A DNA stretch of 64,000 bases from Thermothelomyces thermophilus ATCC 42464 (lineage: Eukaryota > Ascomycota > Sordariomycetes > Sordariales > Chaetomiaceae), in the NCBI RefSeq assembly GCF_000226095.1, contig NC_016478.1:796001-860000 (forward strand). Reading direction: 5' to 3'. A model generated the notes under the pieces. That model made no database searches, was not told the DNA's origin, and saw only the letters and a list, made by a program, of their open reading frames with translations. Below, in pieces: positions 12,180 to 45,455 of this stretch; positions within the stretch are counted from its first letter, which is position 1; the number at the start of each line of letters is the position of its first letter. Position numbers and translations under genes: made by a program.

Positions 12180-12185
12180 TCTTCT

Positions 12186-12331
12186 CTTTTTATCTACTCT
12201 CTTTTTATCTACTCTCTCTTTCTCTACTCTCTCTTTCTCTACTCTCTCTTTCTCTACTCTCTCTTTCTCTACTCTCTCTTTCTCTACTCTCTCTTTCTCT
12301 ACTCTCTCTTTCTCTACTCTCTCTTTCTCTG
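12186..12331. repeat. 15-bp pyrimidine minisatellite
   Basis: About nine tandem copies of ACTCTCTCTTTCTCT, the first two slightly divergent (with TTTTTAT). The period of 15 keeps all frames open, producing repetitive peptides such as (RVEKE)n that are not genes. The array stops at the remnant start of the BTB-family pseudogene. Confidence 0.95.
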
Positions 12332-15522: not shown

Positions 15523-16737
15523 CTAATACTGCGTATTGACAATGTTTCTCTGAGACGAGTACGATGGCTGCCGCGCCTGTCCGATGCTGCCCTCGACGGC
15601 CGATTCTACCGTCGCGCCCGACCTGCCGCTGATGCTCTCTGCGTCCCTATCGCGGTCCGAATCCACGTAGAGCCTGTCGCGCTGGACGGTGACCTCGGTC
15701 GTCATGACCACTGACACGCCGTTGTGCTTCCCGTCTTCCGCGTCCGCGCCGGGGCCGCCCGCGCCGACGTACACCTTGTTGCCCATGTCGTTGCGGTGCT
15801 GGTGGGGGTAGTGGTGGTCGGCCGCGGCTCTCGACCTCCTGTTCTTCTCCCTCAACCCGTCCATCGTCTCCAATGGTAGGCTCGTGTTGTTGTTGGCTGC
15901 CGTCCTGGCGTACGAGCTATCGTGGCCGGAAGAACCGCCCTGGGTCATCTCGACTAACCGGTTCAGGATGCTGAACTCGATCTTGAGCTTGATGCTGTAG
16001 ACGAAGCCCTTGTATGCAGTCTGTATGGCGTACAGACCCGCGAACTCGAGGGCGAGGATGGTGATGTCGAGCACGACGATGACGGCGTTGACGACGACCA
16101 AGTGCGTCATGAGGCGCCGCCGCGTGCTGTCGCGGCCCTGGTTGCGGCCGCTTATGCCACTGCGGCTTCGCACGCGCATGAGAAGAACCGTCTCGTGGAT
16201 GTAGAGGCCCGAGATGATGATCTCCTGCAGGAAGAAGAGCGTCACCTGGACCCGCTCGTAGATGGAGTAGGGGACGATGAAGGGGGCGGGGTTGGACGAG
16301 TTGGAGCCGTAGGCGAACACGGCGGTAGGAATGTGGCCGATGACGGCGTTGGCGACGATCATGGCCAGCACGAGCCGCAGCCGGGACGTGTTGCGCATGA
16401 CGATGTGGAGGCGTGAGTACAGGACGACCGACTGGCCGGTCACCATGAAGCACCATCCCACCACGACCAGAGTCATATAGACCCCTCCGGGGCAGGCCGG
16501 CACCACGGACTTGATCAGGAATCCAACAGAATATACGGCTATAGCCCATGTCGCCACGACGAAACTCCAAAAGTAGAGGCCGCTGCGCCGCTTGAAGGTG
16601 GCTAGGATAATGAAGCTCAGGTCGACGACGTTGTAGAGCGAGATGCTGAGGAATGCTATGACGATAAACAGAGTGGTCCCTTTTGGCGTGCTGCCGGTCG
16701 AGTTGCCGCTGTCTGCTGGCGCCGTGGCAGTAACCAA
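15523..16737 (-). CDS. Fungal multi-pass integral membrane protein of unknown function (5' end unresolved)
   Basis: An open frame of about 404 codons encodes roughly seven hydrophobic segments in residues ~20-270, e.g. 'LFIVIAFLSISLYNVV', 'LYFWSFVVATWAIAVYSVGFL', 'MTLVVVGWCFMVTG' and 'VVVNAVIVVLDITILALEFAG'. A long polar, basic C-terminal tail follows (270-404). It resembles a large fungal family of 7-TM proteins of unknown function, possibly the one catalogued as DUF7703. I see no transporter or receptor motif that would assign a role. Position 16737 is a TTG codon. The frame stays open upstream to a TGA near 16820 without any ATG, so a short 5' exon is probably missing. The ATG at 16931 is one candidate but no donor is clear. 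Confidence 0.72.
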   Translation of the reverse strand: MVTATAPADSGNSTGSTPKGTTLFIVIAFLSISLYNVVDLSFIILATFKRRSGLYFWSFVVATWAIAVYSVGFLIKSVVPACPGGVYMTLVVVGWCFMVTGQSVVLYSRLHIVMRNTSRLRLVLAMIVANAVIGHIPTAVFAYGSNSSNPAPFIVPYSIYERVQVTLFFLQEIIISGLYIHETVLLMRVRSRSGISGRNQGRDSTRRRLMTHLVVVNAVIVVLDITILALEFAGLYAIQTAYKGFVYSIKLKIEFSILNRLVEMTQGGSSGHDSSYARTAANNNTSLPLETMDGLREKNRRSRAAADHHYPHQHRNDMGNKVYVGAGGPGADAEDGKHNGVSVVMTTEVTVQRDRLYVDSDRDRDAESISGRSGATVESAVEGSIGQARQPSYSSQRNIVNTQY

Positions 16738-37038: not shown

Positions 37039-37188
37039 ATGTCCCACCCGCGGGTAGAAGAAGTTTCCGACAGCGATGTCGACATGTCGGACCCCTCCGA
37101 GGGGGACATTGACGAGTTGATCGAATCCGACATCATGCGGCGAGTAGACAGCAAACCACAGTCTTCACGACCACAGCCTCCTCGACCC

Positions 37189-37219
<31 letters not shown>

Positions 37220-37998
37220 AACAACAAAAACAAAAACAGCAGCAGCAGCAGCAGCATGCCCGCCCAGGCCCCCCACCTCCCTACCCCCGAATGCAGACCA
37301 CGACCGACGAGAAGGCGTACAAGTCGTTCCAGTGCCTCTACCCGGTCTACTTCGACGCGACCCGCTCGCGCGCCGAGGGCCGCCGCGTGCCCCGCTCCAT
37401 GGCGGTGGCCAACCCGCTGGCGTTCGACATCGTCCAGGCCTGCGCCAGGCTGGGCCTGCACACCGTCCTCGAGGCCGGCAAGCTGCACCCCAAGGACTGG
37501 GCCAACCCGGGGCGCGTCAAGGTCGACCTGCGCCATCATCACCAGCAGCAGCAGCAAGGCGAGAGCGGCGGCGGCGGCGGCGGCGGCGGCGGTCCTCCCA
37601 AGATCAACAACAAGCACCACCTCTACCTCCTCGTCGCGCAGCACCTGCGCGCCCACCCGACCACCGACTCCTCCCGCTCCCTGCGCGTGGAGGTCCGCGG
37701 CGCCCCGATGCCGCCGCAGGCGCTCGAGCCCGGCAAGCCCTGGCCCCGCCCCGCCGTGCCGCGCGGCTGGAAGATGGGCGAGCTGCTGCCGTACTACAGC
37801 CCGGCCATGACGGGCGGCGGCGTGAGCGAGAACTTCCTCAAGGACATGATGAAGGAGATGCAACAGCACGGCGGCGGTGCGGGCGGCATGCCGGATATGG
37901 CGAGCCTGCTGGCTGCTGCGGGCGGCGCCGGCGCCGGCGGACTCGGGGGCGCTGGGAGCTCGGGACCAGGTAGCAAGAAGAAGGGCAAGGGGAAATAG
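37039..37998 (+). CDS. SEC65: Signal recognition particle subunit SRP19 (Sec65)
   Basis: A single 319-aa exon from the ATG at 37039. The N-terminal acidic segment (~1-30) is followed by a disordered Gln-rich stretch (poly-Gln ~55-72). The SRP19 fold starts at 'FQCLYPVYFDATRSRAEGRRVP', the conserved RNA-binding face, and continues 'VANPLAFDIVQACARLGL' and 'HPKDWANPGRVKVDL'. A His/Gln/Gly low-complexity insert interrupts it before 'HHLYLLVAQHLRAHP'. The C-terminus is Gly/Ala-rich and ends in a Lys tail 'SKKKGKGK', as in fungal Sec65. It binds helices 6 and 8 of SRP RNA and lets SRP54 dock for co-translational ER targeting. It is convergent with the dynactin gene. Confidence 0.92.
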
Positions 37999-38480
37999 AG
38001 AGAAACTAAAGACGCAAATGCAGTAGACGTGTGGTGTTATTCTGACCTCACTGTCTAATTACCTCTCTAATTACCTGTCTGCTTACCTCTCCGCTGTAGA
38101 ATGTTAGCGGCCTCCTGGGTCTTAAGAAGGAACGAAACGCACATTATGCACCAAGTTAACCGAAACAACCCATGCCTCCCTTGTTTTTTCTCTTGCTCAC
38201 TCTCTACCATCTCACATGCCTTACTACACCACCGCCCATTGCTTTCTCGGGATATTCCTCTCGTGTACCTGGGTATAGCAAGAGTAGCGTGGCGTTGCTG
38301 AACACATCTCGTCACGAAAAAATGTGAGGTAGGTGCATGTGATGTGACCAGAGAATCCAACCCAAGCTCGAATTGTGGCGGTTCCTAATATCCAAGCCCA
38401 GAGGGGTATCTCGAAAACATCGCCACCTTTCCCAACGCCCCAAACTCCTCGCACCCGATGCCCAATCCAATCCAAAACCA
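37999..38480. other. 3' flank of SRP19
   Basis: Unique sequence after the SRP19 stop, with three near-repeats of CTAATTACCT at 38055-38085. No coding signal. It leads into the repeat block downstream. Confidence 0.5.
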
Positions 38481-38484
38481 CCAA

Positions 38485-39174
38485 CAAGCCCTGATCCTCC
38501 TTTCCAAAAGAGAGCAAGGCCCCGGCAAATAGAGCAAGGCCCTGACAAATAGAGCAAGGCCCTGGCAAGACCAGAACCGAACGACAACATCGAATCCCTT
38601 CCTCCCGCTTCAACAAATCAACGCTTTCCCACCAAGACCAAGCCAAACGCTGAATCCCTCTCCCCCACTTCCCCCCTCCCCCCCAAAAAAAGAGAGGATA
38701 TACATGAAAACCCACCCGCCCTCCCGAAATGAAATAATGTACAAGAAAACCCGCCCGCCCGCCCGAAATGAAATAATGTACAGGAAAACCCGCCCACCCT
38801 CCCAAAGAAAAAAACCAACCCCCTATCGTACCCTCAAAAGTAGCCTCCTCCCCTGGACACTCATCCTCCCCAAACTTTCTCCCCCTTCACTCGCCAGGAC
38901 CTTGCTCATAAACCTCCCTCCCTCCCTCGCCAGGACCTTGCTCATAAACCCACCCGCCCTCCCTGGCCGGAACCCTGCTCACCTCCCTCCCTCCCTCGCA
39001 GGAACCTTGCCCGTGTTAAATGCCCTCCCCCCTCCCACAGTTTCCACCTTCCATCGCTTCTGTCAACAAAAAAACAGCGCTGAACCCCCTTTCCAAAACA
39101 GAGCAAGACCCCGGCGAGACCCAAAAAAAAAAACCAAATCAAACCAAAAAAATCAAACCAAAACAAACCAAACC

Positions 39175-39205
<31 letters not shown>

Positions 39206-39350
39206 AAAACAAACCAAACCAAACCAAACCAAAAAAAAATCTTTCGCTGGTCCCTTCCTCACAATTCACAAAAGACTTCCTTCGCTGGTCCCTTCCTCAC
39301 AACTCACAAATGACTTCCTTCGCTGATCCCTTCCTCACAATTCACAAACG
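38485..39350. repeat. Compound minisatellite block, apparently copied from the dynactin 3' coding end
   Basis: At least four arrays lie side by side. They are AGAGCAAGGCCCTGGCAAAT (~22 bp, three copies, 38511-38575), a ~43-bp unit around GAAATGAAATAATGTAC (38700-38815), a ~40-bp unit with CGCCAGGACCTTGCTCATAA (38885-38960), and a 41-bp unit CTTCGCTGGTCCCTTCCTCA (three copies, 39240-39345). A CCAAA/A-rich tract (39120-39235) lies between. On the minus strand, 38865-38930 reads 'SKVLASEGGESLGR'. The end of dynactin, 3' of its stop in the same orientation, reads 'GKAPASEGGESSGR'. The units therefore look like diverged duplications of that gene's last codons. The long plus-strand open frame through the block is not a gene. 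Confidence 0.85.
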
Positions 39351-39353
39351 AAT

Positions 39354-42300
39354 TCACCTCCATGGCCTCCTTCCCGAACTTTCACCTCCTTCGCTCGCCG
39401 GGGCCTTGCCCTTCCTAAGTGCCTTCCCCTTTTTCACAGTGGCGACCTTCCGACATTGCCAATCCGCAAATTCCTCCATTTGTTTTGCCGCGTGATACTG
39501 AGGAGTGCTCTTTGCAGGCTTCCAAGCCACCTTATCGGCTGGCAGGCTCGTCATGTCGAAAATCTTGGCCCTGCTTGCTAGGTTGACCAGTTCACCGAGC
39601 ACAGCCCTACTCTCGCTGATGACCTGGGCCTTTCGTTGCTCTGCCGGCGGCGGATTCTCAGTGAGTGGCTCGGCGAGCCAGTCATAGTTCGGCTGTTCCT
39701 TCGTGCGAGCGCGGTGGTTATCCTCGTTTAGGAAGCGTACCGTGGACTGAAGATCCTCGAGCTCCGCTCTAAGGTTGTCGAGCATCCTGCCCAACTCGAG
39801 TGATGAGGCGACTGCACGAGCATAGCCATCCTTAGTGTCAGATTCGTCGTCGTCGTCGTCTTCAGCACTGCCGCTGGAGACAATCCGCCTGCTGCTAGCG
39901 ACTTCCTTCCATTTGTCGCGCTCAGTCTCGAGTAATTTGAGTTCGCGATCTTGTTTTTTGATGTTTTGTGTGAGAGTAATGATCTCCTCCTTTTGGACTT
40001 CGATCTGTTCTTCCAGCTCAAAGATGCGCCATTCCTTGGTTTTGACGTCGCTCATGCGGGACTCGAGCGTCTCAATCCTCAGGTGAGCTGTGCTGAGATC
40101 TTCATTCCGAATGGCGATGGTGCGTTTGGCCTCCGCCAGATCTTCCTTAAGACGACGGGTCTCGATCTCGGCCTCGATCGGAATAGACTTCAGCACCTGC
40201 ATCTCTTCCCTGCGCAGGAGCCACGGGGCCGGCTTGCGCTCGAATTCTTGGGTCTGGGAGAGATCGGCGCTGAGTGCTGCGAGGTCCGAAATCTGTGAGG
40301 TAACGGTTCGTAGCTTGTTGAGATAGGTAGAGAAAAGCTCAGCCTCGTCCGAGCTGAATGCGGACGCGGCCGTCTTCTTCGTGCATGACTGAACGTCGGA
40401 ATAGGTGTATGGGTCTGTCCTGCCCTCTTCGTGCAGGAATTCGTGGAGATCGAGCCCGATTCTCCGTGCCATGTCGGCAAGCTCCGCAGTCGCAGTCTCA
40501 CACTGCTCAAACTTGTCGAAAGCACTGGGAAGCAGAATGAGGCATCTCGACTTCAGGTCCTCCAAGGCGCGCACGGTCTTGCCGGCAATAACCTTGGCGC
40601 TGCGTGTCTGGGTCACGACGCTCTCAATCTTGTTCGAGAAGTGCTTGGCATGCTCCTCTTCTTCGTCTTGCGGGACAACCCGCTGAACCATGGCTGCCGT
40701 GGCCGCAAAGGAAACGGCTGCCGACTCCAAGTAGCTTTGCATGAGCGAAGCCTTCATGTGAATGTCGTCTGCAAAGCTCTCGAGATCATATGAAATGTGA
40801 ACCTCGCCGAGGTGGGTCATGAGGGCAATGGTCCGCTGCAGCTCGGCGGCACACTGCTTCTCCTTGAGGTTGTCTTGCTTGAGCCCTTCGATCCAGCCGT
40901 TCAGGGCTCGCTCGACGGGCTCGAGCTCGTACAGAGCCGCGTGATACTTACCGAACTGCTCGAGGGAACAGTGGCTGATCGAGTTGATGAAACGATCGCA
41001 CATGCACGACACCCAAGCGAGCTTGTCCATGGCGGCGCATCCCTCAAACTGTTCGTTTTCGTGGCCCGGATGAGGCTGACGGTTGATCCGCTCCTTGATG
41101 AAGCGGCGAAGGATATCGGCCTTTGAGGCCAGTCTCTTGAATCGGAGCAAGGCAAGAACAGAGTCCTTGTCTTTTTGGTATGTGTCGTGAAGGAACATGC
41201 TGACGATCTCGAGGTGTTGTTCGGCTTCCTGAGCTTCCATGCGGCGGAGTTCGAGATCGATGGTCTTGGCTTGGGCCTTGGCGGCCGAGACCTGCAGTTT
41301 CATGTTGAGATCCTGCATGGCCCTGGACCGCTGGTTGAGCTGCTCCGATTCCTTCTCCGTGACGGTGTGGGAAGCACGCATGTCTGCCAAGTCGCTCTGC
41401 AAACTAGTGACCAGCTCCCTAAAGCGAGACACCGTGTATTCCATGTCTTCGTTGGCCTTCTGCTGCAATGCGGCCTGGCGGATCTGCTCGGCAATAACGG
41501 CATCCCGCTTGTCGATTTCCTCTTGCATTTCTTTCTGGTTGTGGATGTGGTTGATCTCAAGCTCGTCACTAACTTCCTTGAGCTCCTCGAGATCGCGAAT
41601 GGTAGCTTGGAGTTCCTTGATCTGCTCTGACTGGTTCATTGTCTGCTCCGTCAGGGTCTCAATGAGCTCCTCCGCTCCTAGTGCATTGTCGAGCTGCTCT
41701 CGCAGGTCCTCGACGGCGGCTTCTTTCTGGGCCAGCTCCTCCTTGCACGCATGGAGCTGCTCCTTGACCGCCTCAAACTCGGAAAGGTCTTGCTGCAGCG
41801 ACTTGACCTGAGCCTTGAGCTCCTCCTCCTGGTCACGAGAAATGTCGCGGAGCCGGATCAGAGCGTCCCGGAGTCGTTCATTATTCTTCTCCAGTTGTAG
41901 CCATCCGGTGCTGGCGCGATCCTCGGACGACACGCCCTTGGTGAGCTCAGCGTTCTCCTCGCGGAGGATGTCGACTTCCAGCTGGAGTTCCTCTGTCTTC
42001 TGCTTCAGAGCATCAAGCTCGGTCTTGTAAACCTCAGCCATCTCTTCAGCCATTTCCCGGTCGAGCGTGGCAAGTTCCATGGCCGCTTCGTGCTCCTGCT
42101 GGAGCTCCTCGACATTGTTGAGACGAGTCTCAGCTTCCTTCAGCTGGCGCTTGAGGTCGGCAATCTCCTGTTGCTGAGGCTGATACTTGATTTGCAGAGT
42201 CTGGATGATCCTCTCAAATCGGTCGCGTTCGCTTTTGGTCTTCTCAAGATCGTTGAGCTTCTCTCGGTCCTCCATTCTCTTCTTCTCGAGGACGCGGAGC

Positions 42301-43555
42301 TTGGCTTTGAGCTCTTCAATCTCCTTGTTGGGGGCCGTGCTAGTGCTGGCCGTGGGCCGCGAGGGTGCCACAATGGCACCCGGCGGTTTGATGTCGGTGG
42401 GGGACCTGGTCGCCGTGGTGGGCTTCATGGCTTGCTTGGCAGCCGGTGCGCCGGTGAGTTTCTCCAGTGCCATGGTCCGGGACTGGACGGGACTGATAAG
42501 GGGCGGCGAGGCGACCTCCTCATCGCTGCTCTTTGGAGCTGAAGCAGTGCTACCGGAACTTGAGCGTTTGCCGGCAAGAGACCTGGCGGCACTCAGTAGC
42601 GAGCTGCTCGAGGCTTTGGTAGAGGGGCGAGCGATGCCCGGCTTGGTGGTGGCAGCGGCGGCGAGGCGACCGCTGGGGGTGCGCGCAGGGGCACCGGCAG
42701 CTTTGGGATTGACGGAAGCTGCCTTGGGACCGGTGCCTGGAGAAGATGCCTGCCGGGCTTGTCTGGCAGGCATCGGGGGCGGGCCCATGGAGGTGCGACC
42801 CGCCGAGACAGACAGACGGGGACGAGCCCCCGGCGCAGGTTTTGCATTGGACGGTGTGGTGGTGCGAGAAGTGGCTCCACTGGCCGATGCGGAGCCCAGC
42901 TGCTTCGTGGGCGATCTGGTGGGAGACTGAGACGGCACGTGAGCAAAACTGAACTTGTGCTAACACAAGACGAGGAGGACTTACTCTGATGCCGCTGGGT
43001 GGACGCGACGGCTTCTGGCCTGGTGTCGGACTAGGATCATTCAGGCTGATCCGCTTCGTCAAGCCGGGATCGGCAGGGACCGAGCCGCGCGACGAGCCAG
43101 ACGAGAGCATGCTGCTCGGACGTGCCGTCTTCTTGGCGGGCTGCGGCATGAACGGCGCGGGGGGCTGCGCGAGTAACTTGAGCGCGTTGGGCCGAACAAA
43201 CATGCCGTAGCCCATGGGGCAGTCGAAGTAGCGGACGTCATTGACGCTGCCGTCGTTCTTGCCGGTGGCGTCCTCGAGCTCGACGCCGACCCAGAAGCCG
43301 GGCGCGAACGAAGTCTGGCCGGCAAACCGGATGGTGCCTGGCGAAGGAAGGTTAGCCCAGACTTTCCATTCCGCGCCCCGTCGGCTGCTGCAGAGCTAGT
43401 AGCTCAGAGCAGACGCGGCGGCGGTTCCAAATCTGAAGCTTGCTGCCACGAGAAGGCACGAGACGTGCCAAAGGAACGCGGGCAAGAATGAACCTACCGG
43501 CACGCTGGTCGGCCAGCTGGACCTTCCGGCCAATGGCCAACTCCGTCAGAGACAT
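39354..43555 (-). CDS. ro-3: Dynactin large subunit p150Glued (ro-3 type)
   Basis: Three exons (43555-43498, 43337-42985, 42926-39354) join in phase to 1327 aa, the expected size. The N-terminal CAP-Gly domain (residues ~5-72) is split by intron 1. It includes 'GTIRFAGQTSFAPGFWVGVEL', with the tubulin-binding 'GKNDGSV' intact. A basic Ser/Pro/Lys-rich microtubule-binding segment (~80-260) follows. Coiled-coil 1 (~290-600), a globular central domain (~610-900, 'DKLAWVSCMCDRFINSISH') and coiled-coil 2 (~1000-1230) follow in turn. p150 links cytoplasmic dynein to cargo and microtubules and drives nuclear movement in hyphae; Neurospora ro-3 mutants are ropy. The last ~35 residues are Lys/Gly-rich ('KVATVKKGKALRKGKAP') and appear to be repeated in the DNA downstream. 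Confidence 0.97.
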
Positions 43556-43830: not shown

Positions 43831-45455
43831 TTGGTTGTCTTGATGCTTTCGAAGCTCAATTGAACTTTCTTGTTCAGAAGATGAAAGTGGGAGGAAGGAG
43901 GCGCGCCTCGAGCAGCGTATAAATACTCGAGAGCGACCCACTTTGCACATGCCCCGAGTTGCCAGCCGAGCGAGGGTGTCCGGTTTCAAGACTCACCCCC
44001 TTTGCAGAACCAATATGTCATCGATCAAAAACAGGAAGGCACGGCATTTTAAAGGGAAGGAGCGGCACTTCGGAAGGAAGGAACAAGTGCTTTGGGAGGA
44101 AGAAGCAGCCCGGTAGTGTTGTTTCCAGCGCGACGACGCGGTTGCTTCCCTCTCCCCTGTATTACTTCTCTCTCACCCATATCCAAAGGCAGAGCACTTT
44201 AAAAGGAGGGAACAGTTCGTTACTATCTCACCCATATCCAAAGGCACAACACTCTAGAGGGAACGGCTCTTTAGACAGAAGTTATAAGTGTCTTAGGAAA
44301 AGGTAGTGACCCGTTAGTATTGTTCCTAGGGCGACGAGCTCGTTCGGCTGCGTGTTGTTGTTTCTAGCATGACCCGCTCGCTTCTCCCTCGCCCGCGTCG
44401 CTTTCGGCCCGTAGTGTTGTTTTAGGGGCGACATACTCGCTCCTCCTTCGCCCGCGTCGCTTTCGGCCCCGCGGTGTTGTTTTGGGGGCGACATACTCGC
44501 TCCTCCCTCGCCCGTGTCGCTTTCGGCCCCGTGGTGTTGTTTTGGGGGCGACATACTCGCTCCTCCCTCGCCCGTATCGCTTTCGGCTGCGTGCTGTTGT
44601 TTCCGGGACGACCCGCTCGCTTCTCTCTCTCCCGCGTCGCTTTCGGCCCTGTGGTGTTGTTTTGGGGGCGACATACTCGCTCCTCTCTCGCCTGTGTCGC
44701 TTTTCTCGCCCCTATCGCGCAACCCCCCCCCCCCCCCCCGGGCTCCTCTTGCGTCAAACGAGCTCGACCTGGCCTCCTTGTTTTGGGGGCGACATACTCG
44801 CTCCTCCCTCACCCGCGTTGCTTTCGGCCCCGTGGTATTGTTTAGGGGGGAATATACTCGCTCTTCTCTTGCCTGTATCGCTTATTGATAAGTTTGAGGT
44901 TTATAGTTATAGTACGAGGAGACCTTGAGCTTTGGGAATTGGCATTACGTATGTGCCTTATGTAGCTTGAATAGGAACAAGATAGTTTTCTAAGTCTTAA
45001 GTGTAGACTAGTTCTCCTTGTTAGGGTCGAAAAGCTAGCGCCGCGGACCGGAAGGGGAGTCACTAATGGCCGACCTAAGCGTAGACAGGACTCGGGCGGT
45101 AGGACTAGAGGCAGGCTAGCCGGAGAAAGGGATAACATCTGACTATTATAAAGCCTGTTTACTAGCAGACTTGCCAGATTTCTTATTATCTTTACTAGCA
45201 GGCTGCGTTGTCCTTGTAGGTGGCCTAGTAATGGCCTTATAAGCAGTGGGCTTTTGTGTGCCTACCTCACTCGAGGCGGTAAGAGTGCCTCTCTTGCCTG
45301 TATCGCTTTTCTCGCCGCTACCGCGTAACCCACCCCCCCCCCCCCCCGGGGGGCTCCTTTTACGTCAAACGAGCTCAACCTGGCTTTCTTCCTCCCACTT
45401 CTATCTTCTGAACTAGTAAGTTCGTTGAGCTACCAAAGCATCGTTTGGAAACCAC
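43831..45455. repeat. Composite repeat element, about 1.6 kb, with imperfect inverted ends
   Basis: The left end (about 43831-43900) read in reverse resembles the right end (about 45375-45450). CCTTCCTCCCACTT...ATCTTCTGAAC...AAGTTC..TTGAGCT..AAAGCATC is shared in inverted orientation with scattered mismatches. Inside lie the 60-bp satellite and a ~80-bp direct repeat at about 44693-44770 and 45297-45378 (CGCTTTTCTCGCC, poly-C, GGGCTCCT, CGTCAAACGAGCTC). A minus-strand open stretch of ~46 codons, rich in Lys/Ser/Thr, ends in two stops near 45145. No transposase was recognised. It may be a non-autonomous DNA element or a fold-back repeat; the family is unknown. Confidence 0.6.
44341..44715. repeat. 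60-bp satellite (about six copies)
   Basis: The period is exactly 60 bp. The consensus contains GTCGCTTTCGGCC, GTGGTGTTGTTT, GGGGGCGACATACTCGC and TCCTCCCTCGCCC; a further diverged copy lies at 44778-44885. Two variants occur: one with ACATACTCGCTCCTCCC and one with ACCCGCTCGCTTCTC. Because 60 is divisible by three, several frames stay open. The minus strand reads a 20-residue repeat such as 'GEGGASMSPPKQHHGAESDT'. I treat this as satellite DNA, not a gene. Confidence 0.9.

Follow-up and report, generated by a model that had tools for sequence, protein, structure and literature searches.

The DNA that follows the stop codon of a dynactin gene in the 64,000-nucleotide stretch analysed here (the window) holds several short repeat arrays and, on the strand of the gene, a peptide resembling the end of the dynactin protein. 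This raises the question of how an intergenic spacer came to look like the coding sequence beside it. The gene is recognized by its main 3' coding ORF on the reverse strand, which matches the Dynactin family of Pfam in a profile search (PF12455, E 7.5e-106) and dynactin subunit 1 chains in the PDB (best E 5.8e-64). Farther upstream, at about 43338-43200, lies what is presumably a CAP-Gly-like exon of the same gene, picked out by eye from its motif. The SRP19 gene on the forward strand and the dynactin gene on the reverse strand are convergent, so that the spacer sits between two stop codons. Runs of CAA/CAG (polyglutamine) and of the GCG type (polyglycine) occur in the SRP19 gene at 37189-37244 and 37565-37592. 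The 5' flank of the dynactin gene holds a 60-bp array of 5.5 copies (TRF 44377-44703), accompanied by more diverged units (44343-44883 in all), which places arrays on both sides of the gene. No report of the locus was found in the open-licence literature, dynactin being covered by only part of that search. Table 1 collects the features; the segment that contains the last dynactin codons is termed unit A and the more distant segment unit B.

Table 1. Features at the 3' end of the dynactin gene, in window coordinates
Feature	Position	Strand	Remarks
SRP19 gene	37039-37998	+	Pfam PF01922, E 1.8e-30
Unit B (distal, 566 bp), probably a decayed copy, now spacer	38487-39052	-	50/67, 35/42, 17/18 and 35/40 identical to unit A
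20-bp x3 array	38507-38568	+	In unit B; motif inverted relative to gene
39-bp x2.9 array	38701-38810		TRF; in unit B; unmatched in unit A
36-37 bp array, about 4 units	38864-39010	-	TRF 38879-39010; inside unit B
Unit A (proximal, 376 bp)	39076-39451	-	Blocks 39451-39368, 39137-39120 and 39115-39076 recur in order in unit B
Inverted motif copy in unit A	39096-39118	+	39100-39118 is 17/19 complementary to coding copy 39394-39412
GGTTT / poly-T tract (AAACC/poly-A on other strand)	39121-39239	-	In unit A
38-bp x3 array	39243-39355	-	TRF score 191; in unit A; edge falls at stop codon
Dynactin p150Glued main 3' coding ORF	39354-42938	-	1194 aa; stop codon 39354-39356

Self-comparison of the spacer with the coding end, a check that the sequence-only reading of this locus had set for itself, gave similarity well above background, and the three parallels that it had drawn were all recovered. 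The spacer peptide that it had likened to the true C-terminus is SKVLASEGGESLGR, encoded at 38906-38865 on the reverse strand, against GKAPASEGGESSGR at 39410-39369 (coordinates counted from the frame translation); the underlying DNA (38864-38905 and 39368-39409) is identical at 35 of 42 positions in an ungapped alignment, with a gapped score of 28. The resemblance that it had noted between 39005-39065 and 39400-39455 corresponds to a slightly longer ungapped match of 38986-39052 with 39385-39451 (50/67 identical, best ungapped score 29.6). Likewise, the sequence at 38500 that it saw recurring near 39080 is a 40-bp element, 38487-38526 against 39076-39115, with 35 of 40 positions identical in an ungapped alignment (best ungapped score 29.0). 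The scores of the last two blocks are about twice the best obtained in 300 dinucleotide-preserving shuffles each (maxima of 14.4 for the 50/67 block and 15.4 for the 40-bp element). A T-rich tract ending in GGG on the gene strand also recurs (39137-39120 and 38818-38801, 17/18 identical), but this match is of low complexity and its score of 15.8 lies only narrowly above the maximum of 15.0 reached in 300 shuffles. When the last 150 coding bases were compared with the 950 bases downstream, the gapped score was 33, as against a mean of 11.5 and a maximum of 18 among 2000 shuffles. The longest exact run common to the coding end and the spacer is 9 bases. No third unit was detected in 38400-38487, the part beyond unit B that was aligned with the coding end; the best score there was 11, which equals background.

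Chance similarity within a spacer biased in its purines and pyrimidines is the first alternative to be weighed. It should be noted that dinucleotide shuffles lose longer-range bias, and the odds drawn from them are therefore somewhat generous. Moreover, bias can lift scores of this kind, as seen in a comparison of 75 ORF ends with their own downstream DNA, in which the only outlier besides the dynactin end, ranked second with a score of 25, is a GA-rich low-complexity match. The dynactin end nevertheless ranks first of the 75, scoring 33 where the mean of the whole set, dynactin included, is 11.5. These ORFs have at least 250 codons from stop to stop with little overlap and come from the window and 200 kb of the same chromosome, those without 950 downstream bases in their stretch having been skipped before the count; they were chosen mechanically from two stretches of one chromosome, and some of their ends may not be gene ends. 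Since none of the 2000 shuffles attains even 28, each block exceeds all of its own 300 shuffles, and one block is found genome-wide at these two sites only, we give chance almost no credence.

The last of these observations comes from searches of the genome (38,744,216 bases in 7 contigs). The 28-position core of the 40-bp element, allowing up to 3 mismatches, occurs at two places only, 38499-38526 and 39088-39115, with 0 matches for the control, the two known copies acting as the positive control. A 16-base motif, GCAAGGNCCNGGCRAG, has 6 exact matches in the genome, 4 of them within this 1 kb; with up to 1 mismatch it has 62, of which 6 lie here and 56 elsewhere, compared to 45 for the reversed control. 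Genome searches with stretches of DNA, in which simple repeats are skipped, returned the query's own place only; two of them missed the known match between units A and B even at E 10, and hence these searches exclude near-identical copies only. The same block at unrelated loci, which the sequence-only reading had named as an outcome that would count against it, was thus not found, the core being present at 2 sites and the short motif occurring elsewhere at about the control rate. In a scan of 264 kb for repeat pairs 60-1000 bases apart, the dynactin locus was one of 5 clusters kept; of the 36 pairs in the window, 19 passed the complexity filter and 17 were dropped, and of the 23 pairs in the 200 kb, 2 passed and 21 were dropped. 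Other repeats were also observed, namely a nearly perfect 15-bp array of 9.9 copies at 12183-12330 (TCTCTCTTTCTCTAC, TRF), a diverged 58-base direct repeat at 16077-16395 (43/58 identical, offset 261), and a perfect, self-overlapping 90-base repeat at L027:4635-4805, whose offset of 81 is a multiple of three and which may therefore be an in-frame coding repeat.

The arrangement of the matching blocks is as informative as their similarity. On the gene strand, the late codons, the T-rich tract, and the 40-bp element follow one another in both units with order and orientation unchanged, unit A matching pieces of 39052-38864, 38818-38801, and 38526-38487 in unit B. The coding part of unit A that is matched comprises 28 of the last 32 dynactin codons (39451-39368), after which come the stop codon and trailing DNA. 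The units nearly abut, unit A ending at 39076 and unit B beginning at 39052 with 23 bp between them, as expected from a short head-to-tail duplication. Shared block order and orientation together with adjacency are the marks of a tandem duplication, and both are present here, with the reservation that one block is weak and one match falls out of order. The latter, also weak, joins 38595-38617 to 39251-39273 in the 38-bp array (18/23 identical). Much of both units has no in-order partner, including the 38-bp array, the 39-bp array, and about 130 bp at 38570-38700. In addition, an 18/18 piece is common to the 39-bp array (38708-38725) and the 36-bp array (38946-38963). These two matches mean that further local copying has to be allowed for, or that the 18/23 match is due to chance.

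Judged from the sequence, unit B is probably a decayed copy that arose in one short tandem duplication of the dynactin 3' end and was followed by separate growth of arrays. Under this proposal, a segment with 28 of the last 32 dynactin p150 codons, the stop, and the DNA following it would have been duplicated head to tail. The original segment may have measured perhaps 0.2-0.4 kb, since the 376 bp of unit A today would partly reflect later array growth. The gene would have gone on using the adjoining copy, unit A (39451-39076), while the farther copy, unit B (39052-38487), freed as spacer, would have decayed to about 75-88% identity in its surviving blocks. Thereafter, short arrays may have grown separately in each copy through replication slippage or unequal exchange; in unit B, the KAPASEGG codons would have been amplified to about four units of 36-37 bp, which would account for the C-terminus-like peptide in the translation of unit B. 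That one duplication preceded the other events is our inference, as is the growth of the arrays by slippage or unequal exchange.

The arrays bear directly on this order of events. That several of them lie past the dynactin stop had been noted before, and we find units of 38, 36-37, 39, and 20 bp as well as the AAACC/poly-A tract; their head-to-tail units fall within the range of about 10-60 bp of minisatellites. Their descent from the last codons of dynactin, also proposed earlier, is clear for the 36-37 bp array alone, which matches those codons, and not for the other two compared. The 38-bp array scores 12 in its best alignment to the coding end, which is background (shuffle mean 11.5), with one exact 9-base run in common, and the 39-bp array is absent among the best 6 alignments to the coding end. 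Within the 36-37 bp array, whose units start at 39010, 38978, 38941, and 38905, the flanks of the coding copy are divided between the outermost units, the upstream one lying on the first and the downstream one on the last, which suggests that the array grew within a segment that had already been copied. Several independent small events, with slippage seeded in the last codons and short template switches scattering pieces over the spacer, would readily account for the many small arrays side by side, for the 18/23 match that falls out of order, for the 18/18 piece common to two arrays, and for a motif present in both orientations, which plain tandem duplication does not produce. On the other hand, a single event accounts both for the shared order of three blocks and for their near-abutment, and the inversion, being carried by both units, may predate the duplication. 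We therefore regard a series of small events as unlikely, while granting it a real minority chance. The sequence-only reading, according to which the spacer was reduplicated from the last codons, is thus upheld in that the spacer holds a copy of the coding end and that one array derives from it; in place of repeated slippage seeded in the codons, block order and near-abutment are better fitted by a single tandem duplication followed by array growth.

The motif in question, GCAAGGCCC(C/T)GGC, runs in the gene sense in the dynactin codons and the 36-bp units; it stands in the opposite orientation in the 20-bp array, where one copy has GAC in place of GGC, and at 39096-39118. Both units carry an inverted copy beside the 40-bp element, and for this reason the inversion is probably older than the duplication. 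The 19-bp arms at 39412-39394 (the motif) and 39118-39100 (its inverted copy), complementary at 17 of 19 positions, could alternatively be taken for the inverted terminal repeats of a MITE-like element inserted at the gene end. The inverted pairing score of 17 at the dynactin end is indeed the highest of the 75 ORF ends, yet 2000 same-strand shuffles reach up to 18. There is also no sign of a family, given the 56 occurrences of the motif elsewhere against 45 for its reversed control, and the core of the element beside the inverted arm has no further copy in the genome. Furthermore, the similarity between units A and B on the coding side continues for about 40 bp past the arm, and inspection by eye alone revealed no target-site duplication. 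Insertion of such an element is accordingly hardly credible as the origin of the repeats.

In the predicted RNA fold of 39080-39460 on the reverse strand, the 19-bp pairing of the last codons with the trailing DNA does form. A special RNA structure in unit A was considered and rejected, its fold energy being like that of shuffled sequences (z -0.14, 46 of 100 folding as well). The predicted fold of unit B is more stable than its shuffles (z -2.19, 0 of 100 as good), a stability that inverted arrays would give it. Between 37900 and 39600, no Rfam family reached its gathering score and no tRNA was found. Inspection of unit B by eye shows a C-to-T step, in one or two columns only, that is common to sense units 3 and 4 and to 2 of the 3 inverted motif copies; copying from one inverted repeat to another, or pairing, might be behind it.

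Repeat-induced point mutation (RIP) was also considered as a cause of the divergence of unit B, as duplicated DNA in a fungus is a possible target and C-to-T is, besides A-to-G, the commonest directed change here. In the coding block, the changes from A to B are lopsided, with 7 C>T and no T>C. However, not one of the 7 C>T changes lies at CpA, and TpA/ApT is not raised (B 0.67, A 0.11, window 0.72), so that RIP of unit B is not supported. The lack of support is in keeping with the size of the unit, as the 376 bp of unit A fall below the limit of ~400 bp that is quoted for linked repeats in a passage of PMC5555474.

In the coding block, differences between A and B are distributed 3/10/11 over codon positions 1/2/3 (the two alignments counted have coding bases in common), a split unlike that of maintained coding sequence. 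The earlier suggestion that read-through of the stop could extend the C-terminus finds no support here, as the frame past the stop adds only IRL before it meets further stops. Replacement of the C-terminus, suggested at the same time, is conceivable by deletion between copies, since of the four unit offsets only 431 breaks the frame and 399, 468, and 504 preserve it. Against this, the coding end and the spacer have no exact run of more than 9 bases in common, which makes present-day exchange unlikely, and there is no sign of present-day activity. The last 36 residues of dynactin form a basic tail (11 K/R and 3 D/E); the C-terminal basic region of Neurospora p150 was reportedly linked to membrane binding by Kumar et al. 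in 2001. Between metazoa and fungi, a passage of PMC3583065 describes no conservation of the dynactin1 C-terminal region. One could imagine the A/B pair as a slow cassette in which in-frame deletion between A and a unit of B swaps the last residues of dynactin, so that C-termini may differ among lineages of this fungus, but we consider this very unlikely. For dynactin, the locus would matter only if related strains showed changes in the tail by this deletion route. The locus shows no sign of changing the dynactin protein, and most likely it has no function beyond that of 3' flank or untranslated sequence.

Its value is rather that of a readable fossil, in which intergenic DNA and minisatellites of a compact fungal genome appear to have been made from the end of the neighbouring gene. 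For annotators it carries a warning that a peptide which looks like part of a protein, when met in a spacer, can stem from a decayed copy of the gene end next to it. We would like to stress that the event is of a known kind and its mechanism ordinary, with an anatomy that is well preserved. As in partial tandem duplications of the 3' ends of genes, copies of a gene end lie adjacent and head to tail, the proximal one staying in use and the distal one decaying. The dynactin case differs in being very short (putatively 0.2-0.4 kb at its origin), diverged, and overgrown by arrays. It likewise resembles minisatellites within duplicated segments in its units of 36-39 bp present in 3-4 copies and in a 36-bp array with edges set by a single-copy ancestor, but differs from them in that one coding-derived array now lies outside the coding region.
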